A stretch of 23,641 nt of DNA from a virus. Shown here one piece after another: positions 10,683 to 16,437 of this stretch (positions within the stretch are counted from its first letter, which is position 1; every line of letters starts with the position of its first letter). A model generated the notes under the pieces. It made no database searches. It had not been told where the DNA came from and saw nothing but the letters and a program-made list of their open reading frames with translations. A program made the translations under genes and the position numbers. The stretch is taken from IMG/VR virus record IMGVR_UViG_3300034156_000072, positions 1-23,641 of that record; one strand, 5' to 3'.

Positions 10683-11275
10683 TGGGCGACCTCTCCACCC
10701 ACTTCTCCGTCAGCGAATTCAAGTGCAAAGACGGCTCGCAGTCCGCAATCGATCCCAAACTGATCGAAATGCTGGAAGCCGTCCGCGAACGCTTCGGTCG
10801 CCCGGTTGCCATTATCAGCGGCTACCGGTCCCCCGCCTGGAACAAAAAAGTCGGCGGGGCGAGCCGCAGCTTCCATGTCAAAGGCATGGCCGCCGATATC
10901 AAGATCGCCGGCCTCTCCCCGGCCGAGCTCTATCGCTTCTGCGATACCCGCTGGCCGGTGTCCGGCCTGGGCTTGTACCGTTCCTGGGTCCATATCGACT
11001 GTCGGCCCTATAAGGCCCGCTGGGGCGGCACCCCTCGCGTGGCGCTGCAAAGCGAGGCCGTCCGCGCCTTCTCCTTGGGAGACGTGGTCGCCATCGGCGG
11101 CGTGGTCACCTCCACTAAATGGATCATCGCCAGGGCCCTGGCCGAAATCGCCGTCCGTTGGGGATGGAAAGCCCTGCGCGATTGGCGGGTCAGTCCGGAA
11201 GAGTTATTGGACCTGGCCGACGAATTGCTCGCCTATGCGCGCGCTCGGCAGCATGAGGCGGGCGGTGTCCCGTAA
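10682..11275 (+). CDS. Endolysin-type M15 peptidase (Zn-dependent)
   Basis: A 197-residue protein of the peptidase M15_3 type, likely cleaving peptide cross-links in peptidoglycan at lysis. The N-terminal motif HFSVSEFKCKDG and the catalytic block SGYRSPAWNKKVGG, then SFHVKGMAADIKI, carry the zinc ligands H65 and D72; WVHIDCR supplies H104 and D106. The C-terminal 70 residues are an extension with a hydrophobic stretch (LGDVVAIGGVVTSTKWIIARALAEIAVRWGW) and a terminal acidic helix, longer than minimal M15_3 lysins. It may associate with a membrane or carry a targeting helix. It is coupled by 1-nt overlaps to both neighbours. Confidence 0.87.
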   Translation: MGDLSTHFSVSEFKCKDGSQSAIDPKLIEMLEAVRERFGRPVAIISGYRSPAWNKKVGGASRSFHVKGMAADIKIAGLSPAELYRFCDTRWPVSGLGLYRSWVHIDCRPYKARWGGTPRVALQSEAVRAFSLGDVVAIGGVVTSTKWIIARALAEIAVRWGWKALRDWRVSPEELLDLADELLAYARARQHEAGGVP

Positions 11276-11706
11276 TGCCGACCATGCCTCCTCCGGTCGG
11301 TCCGCCGCCCGAGGAGCATGCGTTCTCGCTGCGTCATCAACGCCTGGAGCGGGTGGAGCTGCTCGCCGCCAAGACCGCGCGGGAGATTTCCTTACATGCC
11401 GCGCAGATGGCGCATATCGAAGACCGGGTCAACGGATTGGCCCATGCGCACGATGCCACGCGCCGCTCCGTCGATCAGTCCACCAAAGCGACCACCCGCC
11501 TCTCCAATACGCTCGACCGGATCGATGCGCGAATCGACACTCTAGTGAAAGAATTCAGCGGTCATCAACTGGACAACGAGCGCGACCGCCGACGGTGGCC
11601 GGCGGTGGCCATCTGGCTCTGGAGCTCGAGCCTCACCGCCATCGGGTCCGTCGCATTGTTAGTCTGGACCAATTGGCCGATGATCTCCCGATGGCTGAAT
11701 CGCTGA
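11275..11706 (+). CDS. Holin-like coiled-coil protein with C-terminal membrane segment
   Basis: A 143-residue protein. Residues 17-100 form a long amphipathic coiled coil (RLERVELLAAKTAREISLHA, then LSNTLDRIDARIDTLVKEF). A single hydrophobic segment follows near the C-terminus (AVAIWLWSSSLTAIGSVALLVW, about 111-132) and then a short basic end. This layout is like XhlA-type holin-associated proteins. Immediately downstream of an endolysin gene (1-nt overlap), a membrane-lesion or spanin-like lysis function is the best guess. The stop is 13 nt before the first CRISPR-like repeat. Confidence 0.68.
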   Translation: MPTMPPPVGPPPEEHAFSLRHQRLERVELLAAKTAREISLHAAQMAHIEDRVNGLAHAHDATRRSVDQSTKATTRLSNTLDRIDARIDTLVKEFSGHQLDNERDRRRWPAVAIWLWSSSLTAIGSVALLVWTNWPMISRWLNR

Positions 11707-11748
11707 AAGAATGAGATCAATGTTCCCCGTCCTTGCGGGGATGAACCG

Positions 11749-11780
11749 AGCGGTGCGGGTGCGGTACGCATCGTCATGGG
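11749..11780 (+). CRISPR. Spacer 1, antisense to a major tail gene start
   Basis: This 32-nt spacer, read on the minus strand, contains ATG and encodes MTMRTAPAPL. The major tail protein encoded just downstream begins MSLRTAPAPL. Of 29 aligned coding bases 20 match; over the RTAPAP codons all differences are at third positions and synonymous. Aligned to 11900-11931, the crRNA-like strand has two mismatches within the first three seed positions and an AAT flank, not a canonical I-E AAG-type PAM, so self-targeting is not expected. Confidence 0.75.
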
Positions 11781-11809
11781 ATGTTCCCCGCATATGCGGG
11801 GATTAACCG

Positions 11810-11852
11810 CGAACCGCGCTACCAGCGGCTATGTGGCCGCGGATGCCGCTAA
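11810..11852 (+). CRISPR. Spacer 2, over-long interval with hairpin
   Basis: At 43 nt this is 11 nt longer than a standard I-E spacer. GCGGC (11825-11829) and GCCGC (11836-11840) form a 5-bp stem with a 6-nt loop, and AGCGGC/GCCGCT (11824-11829 and 11845-11850) give an alternative larger stem. One frame reads ATSGYVAADAAK without a stop, so it may also be a captured coding fragment, but I found no convincing source gene in the window. Confidence 0.55.
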
Positions 11853-11902
11853 ATGTTCCCCGTACGCGCGGGGATAAAGCGAATTGAAACGGGAGTAATC
11901 TA

Positions 11903-12700
11903 ATGAGTTTACGCACCGCCCCTGCACCATTATTCACTCTATTAGAGGCCCGTTTTGGTTTCTGGGTCTCAGACACCGTCCCGCCGACGAGCTATTCCGA
12001 TTTCATCAACAACGAGAAATTGGAGATCTCCGCGCCCGAGCAGGAGATCAAAAAACTCATTTCCAGAATGACATCCACCCAAGGGGCCGCCATCGATTCG
12101 CAGTCCGTCCCCACGGAAAAAACCGCTCAGGTCACCCTGACCGCGTCCACCTTCACCCCGGACCTGCAAGCGATCGCGCTGGGCGCCACCGTCTCGGAGG
12201 TCACCCAGACCGCGGCCGCCGTCGCGTCAGAGGCCGTCAACACCGTGCTGGGCATGTGGGTCCCGCTGGCCAACTACGCCATCGCCGCGGCCGGCACCGG
12301 CACCGAGATCGCGCTTGTGACCTCCTCGGACGTGGCCGTTGCCGCCACCAAGTACGAGATCGACCATGTGCTCGGCATGATCAAAGCCACTCACGCCGAT
12401 GCCGTCGGGGTCGGGATGAAGCTCTCGTATCACCCGGCGGCCGGCACCTGGGAGCAATACCAAGGCGGACTCGCCCTCAATAAGTACGTCCATATCACTG
12501 GCCAGGCCAAAAACCAGGTGAGCGGGAAAATCGGGGACCTGGACATCTGGCGTGCCAACCTGGCCCCGGCCGGGACATTCGATGCGACCGGCGGCGATTA
12601 TCTGCGCGTCGAATTAAGCGGCGATATGTTAGTCCCAAGCGTCGCCGTGCGCGGATTTACTCCCGGCGCTCCGTATCGATTCCGCGTGCGTACCGCGTAA
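11903..12700 (+). CDS. Major tail (tube) protein
   Basis: A 265-residue protein expected to polymerise into the tail tube. It shows an N-terminal RTAPAPLFTLLEARFGFWVSD, beta-rich repeats (TAQVTLTASTFTPDLQAIAL), a central region with TYEIDHVLG-like strands, and a C-terminal LSGDMLVPSVAVRGFTPGAPYRFRVR typical of tail tube folds. Size and position before the tape measure gene support the call. GGGAG lies 8 nt before the ATG, just after the last CRISPR-like repeat. Its first ten residues are the ones mirrored in spacer 1 of the upstream array. I considered a second structural protein, but no other gene here fits the tube role better. Confidence 0.72.
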   Translation: MSLRTAPAPLFTLLEARFGFWVSDTVPPTSYSDFINNEKLEISAPEQEIKKLISRMTSTQGAAIDSQSVPTEKTAQVTLTASTFTPDLQAIALGATVSEVTQTAAAVASEAVNTVLGMWVPLANYAIAAAGTGTEIALVTSSDVAVAATKYEIDHVLGMIKATHADAVGVGMKLSYHPAAGTWEQYQGGLALNKYVHITGQAKNQVSGKIGDLDIWRANLAPAGTFDATGGDYLRVELSGDMLVPSVAVRGFTPGAPYRFRVRTA

Positions 12701-12915: not shown

Positions 12916-13338
12916 ATGGCCAATACCCTCTCCAAGGGCAGCACCGTACTCGCGCTCCCGGGCAACCTCATGCCCTCGGACGAATGGCGCAACTGGAGCC
13001 CCATGGTCCAGAGCACGGAATACAGTCTCTCCGGCGCCATCGTCATCGAAAGCGCGGAGAAGCAGGCGGGTGCGCCGCTGACCCTGGAAGGCGGAGACCG
13101 CTGGGTCTGGTTGACCGGGGCCCAATGCGACGCCATCGACGCCTTGCTGGCCGATATCTCCGAACCGCTGACCCTCACCCTGCACGATGGCGTGGCCCGC
13201 ACCGTCCTGCCGCGGATCGAAGACGGCAAGAAGCCCCTGCGCCGCACCCCGGTTCCGATGCTGGCCGGATCGGGACTCGCCGATCCGACATCGGCAACGA
13301 AGTACGTGATCGAACAATTAATGTTCTGGGAGCTATGA
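12916..13338 (+). CDS. Tail assembly/minor tail protein, unknown
   Basis: A 140-residue protein between the tail tube and tape measure genes. It is beta-rich (GSTVLALPGNLMPSDEWRNW, EYSLSGAIVIESAEKQAG, LTLEGGDRWVWLTGAQCDAI, LTLTLHDGVARTVL). The ATG at 12916 is preceded by GGGA; a TTG at 12910 in the same frame is possible. The region before a tape measure usually encodes tail assembly chaperones, and this gene overlaps the next by 4 nt (ATGA). The sequence does not look like lambda gpG, and no slippery heptamer for a -1 shift is apparent. It may be a tube-binding or assembly factor. Confidence 0.7.
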   Translation: MANTLSKGSTVLALPGNLMPSDEWRNWSPMVQSTEYSLSGAIVIESAEKQAGAPLTLEGGDRWVWLTGAQCDAIDALLADISEPLTLTLHDGVARTVLPRIEDGKKPLRRTPVPMLAGSGLADPTSATKYVIEQLMFWEL

Positions 13339-13353
13339 TGGTTTTCATCATAG
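13333..13353 (+). promoter_or_regulatory. Hairpin over stop/start junction
   Basis: CTATGATG and CATCATAG form a perfect 8-bp stem with a GTTTT loop. It covers the TGA stop of the upstream gene and the ATG of the next one, so it probably sets translational coupling: ribosomes finishing the first gene would open the structure and expose the start of the second. Confidence 0.55.
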
Positions 13354-13661
13354 GCCGCTATCCGCCGGACTGGATAACCAAACCAATTCAGGCGATTTTC
13401 AATATCACCGCAGAGATCAAACGAATGAACGAAAAACTCGACACTCTCGTCCAACGCGTTTCCGCTATCGAAAACGCAGGCGATTCCGCCATCCTATTAT
13501 TGCAAGACCTGAAAACTTCACTCGATGCCGCTATTGCCGCAAGCGATTGGGTCGCGGTCAACGACATCAACGATCGTCTGGCCGCGCAAACCAATGAGCT
13601 GGCCGCCGCAGTGGCGACCTATACGCCAGGCTCAACCGAGCCGACCGATCCAGAGGTTTAA
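13335..13661 (+). CDS. Small coiled-coil tail protein
   Basis: A 108-residue protein starting at the ATGA overlap with its predecessor. The part from residue 31 (MNEKLDTLVQRVSAIENAGD, then ILLLQDLKTSLDAAIAASDW and NDINDRLAAQTNELAAAVATY) is a continuous heptad-like helix, ending in a Pro/Thr/Glu tail. The first 30 residues (VFIIGRYPPDWITKPIQAIF) are hydrophobic and less regular, so the ATG at 13425 is an alternative start. This resembles many short, poorly conserved phage coiled-coil proteins near tape measure genes. Role unknown; a tape measure chaperone is plausible. Confidence 0.7.
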   Translation: MMVFIIGRYPPDWITKPIQAIFNITAEIKRMNEKLDTLVQRVSAIENAGDSAILLLQDLKTSLDAAIAASDWVAVNDINDRLAAQTNELAAAVATYTPGSTEPTDPEV

Positions 13662-13728: not shown

Positions 13729-16437
13729 ATGCCACCCCCGAGCAACAACCTCGCCATCCGCCTTCTGATTGCGGCTGAAGATCGGGCCAGTCGCGTATTG
13801 CAAGCCGTCGGCGGCCGTGTCACCCAACTCGGCGCCGCCATCGCCGCGTACTTCACCGGCCGGGCGCTCGCCAATTACTTCGAGAGCGCCGTCGATTCCG
13901 CGGGCTCACTAGAGCAACAACTCTCCGTCCTGCAGCAAACCTCCGGGGCCAGTGCAGACGAGATGCTCGCCCTCAAGGCCGCCGCCGAAGCGGTGGCCGA
14001 CAGCCCCTTGCCCTATACCGCCGCCCAAGCCGCGGCGGGTCAGATCGAGCTCGCCCGGGCGGGCCAGAGCGCCCAAGAGGTCATCGCCTCCCTGCCCCCG
14101 GTCCTCAACCTCGCCGCGGCCGCTCAACTGGAGGTGGGTGAGTCCGCCGGCATCGTGACCGCCCAGCTCGGCGCTTTCGGGTTGTCCGCCCAAGAAGCCG
14201 GCCGGGTCGCCGACACCCTCACCGCGGGTGCCAACGCCAGCAACACCTCCGTCAAAGCCCTGGCCGAAGCCCTCTCCTATGCCGGGCCGATGGCCAAAGC
14301 CGCCGGCTACAGCATCGAACAGGCCGCCGCCGCCGTCGGCATCATGGCCAATTCGGGAATCGACGCCAGCCGGGCCGGCACCGCGCTTAACTCCATCTTT
14401 TCCCAATTACAGGACCCGGCCAGCAAAGCCAGCGCCGCCCTGTCCGGCATGGGCGTCACCTCCCGGGATCTCTCCACCGTCCTGGACGCGTTGGCCGCCG
14501 GCACCCCGGCCGCCGAAAAGGCCATCCTGGCATTCGGCACCGAGGCCGGCCCGGGACTGCGGGCCCTGGTCGCGTCCGGCGGGCAAGGCGTCGACGGACT
14601 GCGCGACAAGATCGCCGGCATGGGCGGGGAAGCCGCCAAGGCCGCCGCGGCGATGCAGGACAACCTGTTCGGGGCCTTCGGGGAGCTGGGCAAGCTGTGG
14701 GACAGCATCAAGACCAAGGTCGGCGAATCCCTCCTCGGACCCCTGGAGCGGGAGATCCGCTCCGTCTCCGCGTCCTTGCGGGCCTGGGTGCAGTCCGGGC
14801 AGCTCGACACCTTCCGTGCGTCCATCGTCTCCGCGTTCGAGGCCGCCGTAGCCGCTGCCAAGCAGTTCGTCGGCTCCTTCGACCTGGCCGCCGTTGCGCA
14901 GAACCTGGCCGACTTCGCCGCCCGGGCCGGCGCCGCCTTGGATGGGGCGCGGGCCAAGATCGAAGCGGTTGGGGAAGCCTCCGCCCGGGTGGTCGCGGCC
15001 GTCTCCGGGATCTGGAACGGCTTCCGCGCCACGGTCGAGGCGGTCGGCGCGGCCTTCTCCGCCTTGGCCACGACCGTCCTGTCCGCCTATGCCTCCATCG
15101 TGGAGGGCGCCAACAAAGTCGGGCTCGCTCAAGACCAGACGGCGCTCAAGGCCCGCGCCGCGGCGGATACCGCCGGGCAAGCCTGGGCGGATTTCAGCGC
15201 CGCGTCCCAACAACACTTCGCCGCGTCGGGCGATGCGTTCCTGCGCATGGTCGGCACCCAAACGACCGGCACCCAAACCCTCGCCGCCAATGCCCAGACC
15301 GCCACCCAATCGGTCGGCATCACGGCCGATGCGCTCGACGCCCTGGGCGCCTCGGCCGACTTTGCCGCGGCGGGTCAGGCATCCCTGACGGCCGCTACCC
15401 AAGCCGCCGTCCCGGTGGCCGAAGCCCACGCCGCCGCCACCGCCCAAGCCGCCGCGGCCGCCCAAACCGAAGCGCAAGCCAAAGCCGAGTCGGCGCGGCG
15501 CATCCAAGAGGAATCCAACGCGCGGCGCATCGCCATCGAAGCCGCCCAACTGGAGCTGGAAATCCGCGGTCGCTCCGTTGGCCTCATCCAGTCCGAGGGC
15601 GATGCTCGGGTGACCCACATGCAAAACCTGCGCGCGGAAGCCATCGCCCGCGGGGATGCCGCGGAAGCCGCCCGGCTGGGCGACGAGGTCGCGTGGGCCA
15701 GCATCCGTGCCGCCAAGGCCAACGCCCAGGCCAAGCGCGAGGAAGCCGATGCGGCCCAAGCCCTGGCCCTTGCCCTGCTTCGGCAGGCACAGGCGGAGGG
15801 CGATACCAGTCTGGAGACCCGCGCCGCCGTGGCCGCGGCGGAACAGGCCGCGCGCGCCAAACAACTGGAGGCGGATGCGGCCAAGGAGGCGCTGCGGCAC
15901 GAGCAGGCCCTGGCCGCCGCCGCGGATGAGGTGGCTAACGCCACGGGACGATCCGCGGACGAAGCCGAACGCGATGCCGGCGCACGCCAGGCCGGGGCCG
16001 ATGCGGAAGCCAAGAAGGCCGAAGCGGCGAACAATTTCTCGACGGCGGGGGCCACCGCGTGGGCCGCGAGCTGGAACGCCGAGAACCTCGCCAAGCAATT
16101 CGGCCAGACCCCAACGAACAAAGGTCGCGAGAAGGACTTGGCCGACTATCTGTTTCAGCGCACCCGCGGCGGCACCGGGGACAGAAGCCGCTTTATTGGC
16201 GACAAGCTCGCCGAAGTCCGCGCCATCTGGGCGAAAGAAGACGCTCAACGCCAACCGGCCGCCGCCACTGCCCCACCGGAATCCGCCGCCGCCGCGGAGA
16301 GAGAGCCGCGCAGAGCCTTCCGCACCGTGCGCGTCGAGCTGGTGTCCGGTGGCAAGACCGCTCACTTAGACCTGCCCGAGGGGCAGGATAACGCCCTGCT
16401 GGATGCCATACGGCGCTCGGGGCTCGCATCCACCTGA
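13729..16437 (+). CDS. Tape measure protein (TP901 type)
   Basis: A 902-residue protein that sets tail length and helps DNA entry. At about 1.5 angstrom per residue it predicts a tail of roughly 135 nm. The N-terminal half carries a TP901-like core (EQQLSVLQQTSGASADEM, GILNSIF-type SRAGTALNSIFSQLQDP, AFGTEAGPGLRALVASG, residues about 60-290). Long Ala-rich amphipathic helices follow, very marked at residues 560-770 with repeated AA/EA/KA heptads. The C-terminal part has a NKGREKDLADYLFQRT segment and a short beta-like end. No Shine-Dalgarno is visible: the bases before ATG are the I-C-like repeat and a C-rich stretch. This is the longest confident tail gene except the tip protein. Confidence 0.93.
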   Translation: MPPPSNNLAIRLLIAAEDRASRVLQAVGGRVTQLGAAIAAYFTGRALANYFESAVDSAGSLEQQLSVLQQTSGASADEMLALKAAAEAVADSPLPYTAAQAAAGQIELARAGQSAQEVIASLPPVLNLAAAAQLEVGESAGIVTAQLGAFGLSAQEAGRVADTLTAGANASNTSVKALAEALSYAGPMAKAAGYSIEQAAAAVGIMANSGIDASRAGTALNSIFSQLQDPASKASAALSGMGVTSRDLSTVLDALAAGTPAAEKAILAFGTEAGPGLRALVASGGQGVDGLRDKIAGMGGEAAKAAAAMQDNLFGAFGELGKLWDSIKTKVGESLLGPLEREIRSVSASLRAWVQSGQLDTFRASIVSAFEAAVAAAKQFVGSFDLAAVAQNLADFAARAGAALDGARAKIEAVGEASARVVAAVSGIWNGFRATVEAVGAAFSALATTVLSAYASIVEGANKVGLAQDQTALKARAAADTAGQAWADFSAASQQHFAASGDAFLRMVGTQTTGTQTLAANAQTATQSVGITADALDALGASADFAAAGQASLTAATQAAVPVAEAHAAATAQAAAAAQTEAQAKAESARRIQEESNARRIAIEAAQLELEIRGRSVGLIQSEGDARVTHMQNLRAEAIARGDAAEAARLGDEVAWASIRAAKANAQAKREEADAAQALALALLRQAQAEGDTSLETRAAVAAAEQAARAKQLEADAAKEALRHEQALAAAADEVANATGRSADEAERDAGARQAGADAEAKKAEAANNFSTAGATAWAASWNAENLAKQFGQTPTNKGREKDLADYLFQRTRGGTGDRSRFIGDKLAEVRAIWAKEDAQRQPAAATAPPESAAAAEREPRRAFRTVRVELVSGGKTAHLDLPEGQDNALLDAIRRSGLAST

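Follow-up and report, generated by a model that had tools for sequence, protein, structure and literature searches.

The stretch of DNA that was analysed here (the window; 23,641 nt, IMG/VR record IMGVR_UViG_3300034156_000072) belongs to a phage record that holds integrase, tail and terminase genes. IMG/VR has a second record of the same phage, which is 35.8 kb long and shares 23.6 kb at 100% identity; in it a tyrosine integrase, a repressor-like gene, an antirepressor-like gene and a primase/helicase were recognised. Given these genes, the phage is probably temperate. A search for its host with the tail protein and the integrase in GTDB genomes returned nothing, and the tail protein had no match among annotated phages. 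Between a gene of unrecognised family and the gene for the major tail protein, and in the same direction as both, lies a short series of CRISPR-like repeats (Table 1).

Table 1. Features of the mini-array locus, in window coordinates.
Feature	Position	Strand	Remarks
143-aa gene, family unrecognised, upstream of the array	11275..11706	+	
Repeat 1, type I-E-like, ATGTTCCCCGTCCTTGCGGGGATGAACCG	11720..11748	+	3 motif matches against 0.01 expected in shuffles
Spacer S1 (32 nt), which runs antisense to where the L005 major tail gene begins	11749..11780	+	30/32 to L005:4998-5029 (minus strand), AAG flank
Repeat 2, ATGTTCCCCGCATATGCGGGGATTAACCG	11781..11809	+	motif match in shuffle-controlled scan
Spacer-like S2, 43 nt	11810..11852	+	
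Repeat 3, end degenerate, ATGTTCCCCGTACGCGCGGGGATAAAGCG	11853..11881	+	motif match in shuffle-controlled scan
Repeats of the array, short form: ATGTTCCCCG...GCGGGGATNAACCG			
Own altered copy of the S1 target, tail gene start	11900..11931	-	flank AAT (11932-11934), 21/32 to S1
Major tail protein gene (phrog_807, major tail protein with Ig-like domain)	11903..12700	+	E 4e-26

The matches to the I-E repeat motif, three in the window, were all exact. The repeats, which were examined within 11700-11905, are 29 nt each and have in common the type I-E stem (CCCCG...CGGGG), while the loops differ among all three; they align with annotated CRISPR arrays of E. coli, be it with weak scores. The segment from repeat 1 to repeat 2, with its 29-nt repeats, G+C stem and a spacer of exactly the I-E length, appears to be a standard I-E unit, and it is for this segment only that we make the claim. 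S2 is around 11 nt longer than such a unit permits, which means that unit length is not uniform across the array; one of the frames of S2 reads NRATSGYVAADAA. Considering the length of S2 and the degenerate repeat 3, part of the array may be decaying. A source of S2 was found neither in the phage itself nor in the sister phage described below (degenerate pattern and local alignment), and all spacers joined as a single query had no match among annotated phages. Rfam gave no match within 11600-12000, and a consensus scan of 11200-12100 recovered no sigma-70-like promoter and no leader with promoter before the array. Cas proteins were not matched among the ORFs that were scanned, which are part of the ORFs of a record that is itself a fragment. 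On the basis of these features, the segment 11720-11881 can be classified as a phage-borne, leaderless type I-E-like mini-CRISPR array without recognised cas genes nearby.

According to the original prediction, S1 encodes MTMRTAPAPL when read on the minus strand and is antisense to a diverged copy of the start of the neighbouring tail gene, which begins with MSLRTAPAPL. A comparison of the translations confirmed both readings, and all differences between S1 and the own gene across the RTAPAP codons are indeed synonymous. The source was thought to be the homologous tail gene of a related phage, and such a gene was recovered. It resides in the sole other IMG/VR phage that has a closely related tail protein (L005; a 30.2-kb record, with a tail protein 90% and an integrase 95% identical to those of the carrier). 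Its tail gene starts with CCCATGACCATGCGTACCGCACCCGCCCCGCTCTTC, the reverse complement of which agrees with S1 at 30 of the 32 positions (BLAST E = 1.3e-12), a comparison that concerns a single sister phage and an imperfect match; the chance of 30/32 anywhere in this 30-kb record is ~4e-10. The match takes in the 3 non-coding bases that precede the L005 start codon, and the protospacer is preceded on its 5' side by AAG, the optimal PAM of type I-E Cascade (PMC5904413). A perfect match with an AAG PAM in the tail gene of a relative had been anticipated; the PAM and the gene were borne out and the perfect identity was not. When the viral collection was searched with a degenerate pattern for starts that encode MTMRTAPAPL, only the carrier and L005 were retrieved, and S1 is far closer to the tail gene start of L005 than to that of the carrier. 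L005 lacks repeats near the tail gene and elsewhere in its record.

The two mismatches between S1 and L005 are located at spacer positions 6 and 24 and are both synonymous (ACG/ACC and GCA/GCC). It has been established that every sixth guide position is flipped out in type I-E Cascade (PMC5904413), and the two mismatches should therefore go unread. The chance that both fall on sixth positions is 0.02 when any position is free and 0.29 when only third codon positions are considered, and we regard the coincidence as modest evidence. The match ends at the PAM-side edge of the spacer. Past the 3' edge, 8 of 12 bases, which lie in repeat 2, still match L005 (7% chance, corrected over 26 edges); this extension is borderline as a chance event and leaves some room for an origin of S1 by recombination.

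The copy of the target within the carrier itself is different from S1 at positions 2, 3, 9, 12, 18, 21, 23, 24, 25, 30 and 31. That two of these mismatches would be found within the first three seed positions, next to an AAT flank, had been noted beforehand and proved correct, and the orthologous site thus appears altered in the flank, at positions 2 and 3 and at nine others. The change of the PAM from AAG to AAT came about via a synonymous leucine swap (CTC to TTA), and for E. coli it was reported that mismatches at positions 2 and 3 reduce the binding of Cascade (PMC5904413). By DNA alone, the self match of S1 is insignificant (p = 0.38 over the whole phage and 0.04 within 2 kb), and the match to the own gene was for that reason rejected as proof, by itself, of the origin of S1; it is the match to L005 that decides the matter. 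Within the first 100 residues, the tail proteins of the carrier and L005 differ at residues 2 and 3 alone, both of which are encoded within the protospacer. In their first 20 codons the two genes are set apart by 17 nucleotides, more than the 10 expected (p = 0.02); synonymous changes are in excess, and the third positions in the carrier are AT-rich (GC3 of 8/20, against 16/20 in L005). Such a recoded gene start fits an escape by recoding, as far as can be judged from the comparison of the two alleles; that recoding could equally have arisen if weak mRNA structure is selected for at gene starts.

To put the array in context, IMG/VR was scanned for the I-E repeat, which yielded 47 stretches. 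The comparison of spacers with their own contig comprised 30 short-array spacers on 19 contigs, taken whole where possible, with 300 shuffles as a control. A match within the own phage at p <= 0.01 was obtained for 8 of the 30 spacers (0.3 expected), and in all eight cases it was located at most 2.5 kb from the array, on contigs that mostly measure 20-58 kb (Fisher p 1.9e-6 for closeness). For traceable I-E spacers, the target as a rule lies close to the array. An accepted I-E PAM is kept at three of the eight own sites (p 0.007). In a wider and less strict set of 13 pairs, which includes the window versus L005 and in which nearness helped to choose the weak pairs, an accepted I-E PAM is present in eight. 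Most of these 13 matches extend past neither edge of the spacer; only the 3' edge in the window described above and, trivially, a repeat-flanked site in L017 depart from this. The matched neighbours include a phrog_807 tail gene (L038), a tape measure gene (L034), a dCMP deaminase gene (L037), the genes for an Erf-like annealing protein and a repressor-like protein (L017) and an antirepressor-like gene (L014). Judging by these alignments, the own-matching spacers resemble units of 32 nt that were taken from the orthologous loci in relatives; for the phages other than the carrier no array-less relative was found, and for these we infer the origin from relatives.

The organization of the other loci is diverse. 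L017 (G006, 41.5 kb) has five separate I-E array loci (at ~1590, 11244, 13786, 15526 and 40951, array strand), four of which carry a spacer that resembles sequence 61-139 bp away, one of them at p <= 0.01; the two spacers of the fifth locus resemble each other. Its array at 15526-15613 (array strand) is situated in frame inside the start of the repressor-like gene and directly precedes a 31/32 copy of the spacer, the end of the repeat occupying the place of the PAM. An array-less allele of the fourth array of this phage was not present in IMG/VR. In L014:8630-9150, the array is found behind the antirepressor-like gene, and its repeats 1 and 2 enclose the 3' end of another, diverged allele of this gene, as if the gene was exchanged after the array had arrived; a search for E. 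coli relatives of this locus matched the CRISPR repeats alone. In L038 (G014:42088-42793) it is again a phrog_807 major tail gene that adjoins the I-E mini-array, and the spacer is a diverged copy of it. The own copy in L015 (G004, 13267-13460, array strand) keeps AAG and an intact seed, with mismatches from position 9 on, and for this phage self-targeting, priming or regulation should be considered. Five small contigs (L028, L030, L033, L042 and L043) have a spacer with a perfect self match (33/33; 32/32 in L030) 1550 bp off, flanked by TGA. Finally, two cultured Propionibacterium phages (L064:1440-1530 and L065:1440-1530) possess two I-E-like repeats between the lysis genes and the integrase region, which by eye represent a different pattern and were set aside.

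For the carrier, we consider it likely that a crRNA made from S1 acts with host Cascade-Cas3 to attack an L005-type sister phage during co-infection, while the carrier itself is spared. The anatomy of the array, the 30/32 match with its AAG PAM, the altered own copy and the array-less state of the sister can be read from the sequences, and the individual steps of the scheme draw on established I-E biochemistry. Read-through from the late operon would provide a pre-crRNA, which would be cut by host Cas6e. Provided that a compatible I-E system is present in the host, its Cascade would then take up the S1 crRNA, and Cas3 would be brought to the point where the major tail gene of the sister phage begins. 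The carrier would be spared because its own copy lacks the PAM and has two seed bases altered, and the net effect would be interference with a close competitor inside the same cell. Given the shared integrase, L005-type phages probably have the same host as the carrier. Considering that no promoter consensus was found upstream, the crRNA is possibly made mainly in productive infection, which would imply a role in co-infection rather than in the immunity of a lysogen. Expression may come from late transcription only, and this would be late for exclusion.

It has also to be considered that the repeats could represent an RNA anti-CRISPR (Racr), in which case they would mimic host repeats, tie up Cas6e/Cas7 and protect the phage, and S1 would be incidental. 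A conserved stem with variable loops agrees with such a role, I-E Racr candidates were shown to inhibit a type I-E system (PMC10651486) and several I-E units of our set are single repeats (e.g. in L016). Racrs are solitary units, however, whereas in the carrier three repeats enclose a unit of exactly 32 nt whose match in a sister phage is flanked by a PAM, which a mimic does not need, and we therefore hold this explanation to be improbable. It is unlikely as well that S1 dates from an earlier acquisition against an L005-like phage and that the array, having lost its expression or processing, is now a decaying and inactive remnant. Both mismatches to the sole known target are at unread positions, both assemblies have repeat 1, S1 and repeat 2 in intact form (they are 100% identical over 23.6 kb, though possibly from related samples) and the own copy still has the changes in PAM and seed, all of which has to be set against the 43 nt of S2, the degenerate repeat 3, the promoter that was not found and the mere presence of two mismatches. 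The partial match at the own start codon, 151 bp from the array, together with the AAG and intact seed of the own copy in L015, might suggest a role like that of CreR in CreTA, in which S1 would guide host Cascade to the start of the carrier's own tail gene and repress it. This is very unlikely, since poor binding is expected at a site with an AAT flank, seed mismatches 2 and 3 and only 21/32 identity, and the better match and the PAM belong to the array-less sister. A relic of the tail gene start, duplicated or inverted locally between chance hairpins and without a match elsewhere, was the outcome that would have told against the original prediction, and despite the nearness of the gene and the 8/12 bases past one spacer edge it can for practical purposes be discounted, as S1 resembles L005, non-coding bases included, far more than the own gene, ends at the PAM-side repeat border, is 32 nt long with an AAG flank in L005 and belongs to a pattern that recurs in unrelated phages.

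Attack on a sister phage could be part of a larger arrangement, in which the mini-array and the recoded allele next to it form one selfish cassette that acts by homing or by the killing of array-only recombinants, although we think this rather doubtful. In sister phages without the array, the homologous locus would then be cut by host Cascade-Cas3, and during co-infection the array would be copied, together with the immune allele, through repair or recombination; in a weaker version, recombinants that gain the array without the immune allele would at least be killed. A linked or homing cassette is a possible explanation of the closeness of array and target. If true, the cassette would be the RNA-guided counterpart, in nature, of intronless homing, and the position of arrays next to their target would be accounted for. 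A free-standing homing endonuclease adjoins the site that it attacks. For intron-encoded and free-standing homing endonucleases, interference or marker exclusion has been described (PMC11620839). The likeness with the array would be that of a nuclease-directing element that attacks a sister phage; unlike the homing endonucleases, the array comes without an endonuclease gene and the nuclease would be host Cas3.

Mini-arrays with spacers against close relatives are already known, both from archaeal viruses and from bacteriophages. As a viral array with no more than two spacers flanked by CRISPR repeats, the carrier array is of the phage type, and S1 is its only spacer for which a PAM-flanked match in a related virus was recovered. 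The mini-arrays of the Saccharolobus portogloboviruses SPV1 and SPV2 (Medvedeva 2019; PMC6858448) are archaeal and have a host-like leader with promoter, whereas the carrier is a bacterial tailed phage with I-E-like repeats, in which the consensus scan revealed no leader. Racrs (PMC10651486) have in common with the carrier array that host-like CRISPR repeats are borne by a phage without cas genes (in the carrier, none were recognised among the ORFs scanned), but they are solitary repeats without a targeting spacer and the carrier array has three repeats and S1. Leaderless mini-arrays in bacteriophages and prophages, with some spacers that target adjacent genes of close relatives and not the carrier, were described by Faure 2019 (as cited in PMC6858448 and PMC7099407). 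The lack of a leader and the adjacent-gene targets in relatives are as observed here, and relative to that account, as cited, we found no difference in kind, the variable repeat loops and the one unit of 43 nt being what sets the present array apart. A 2024 review regards mini-arrays as tools of inter-virus competition (PMC11656645). The present analysis adds a clear-cut example from a bacterial temperate phage, in which the target was traced and identified together with its PAM and an altered self copy, and a count that supports the closeness of array and target. The question raised in 2019, why the targets adjoin the array, has thereby become testable in terms of linkage selection, homing or a biased origin of the spacers.
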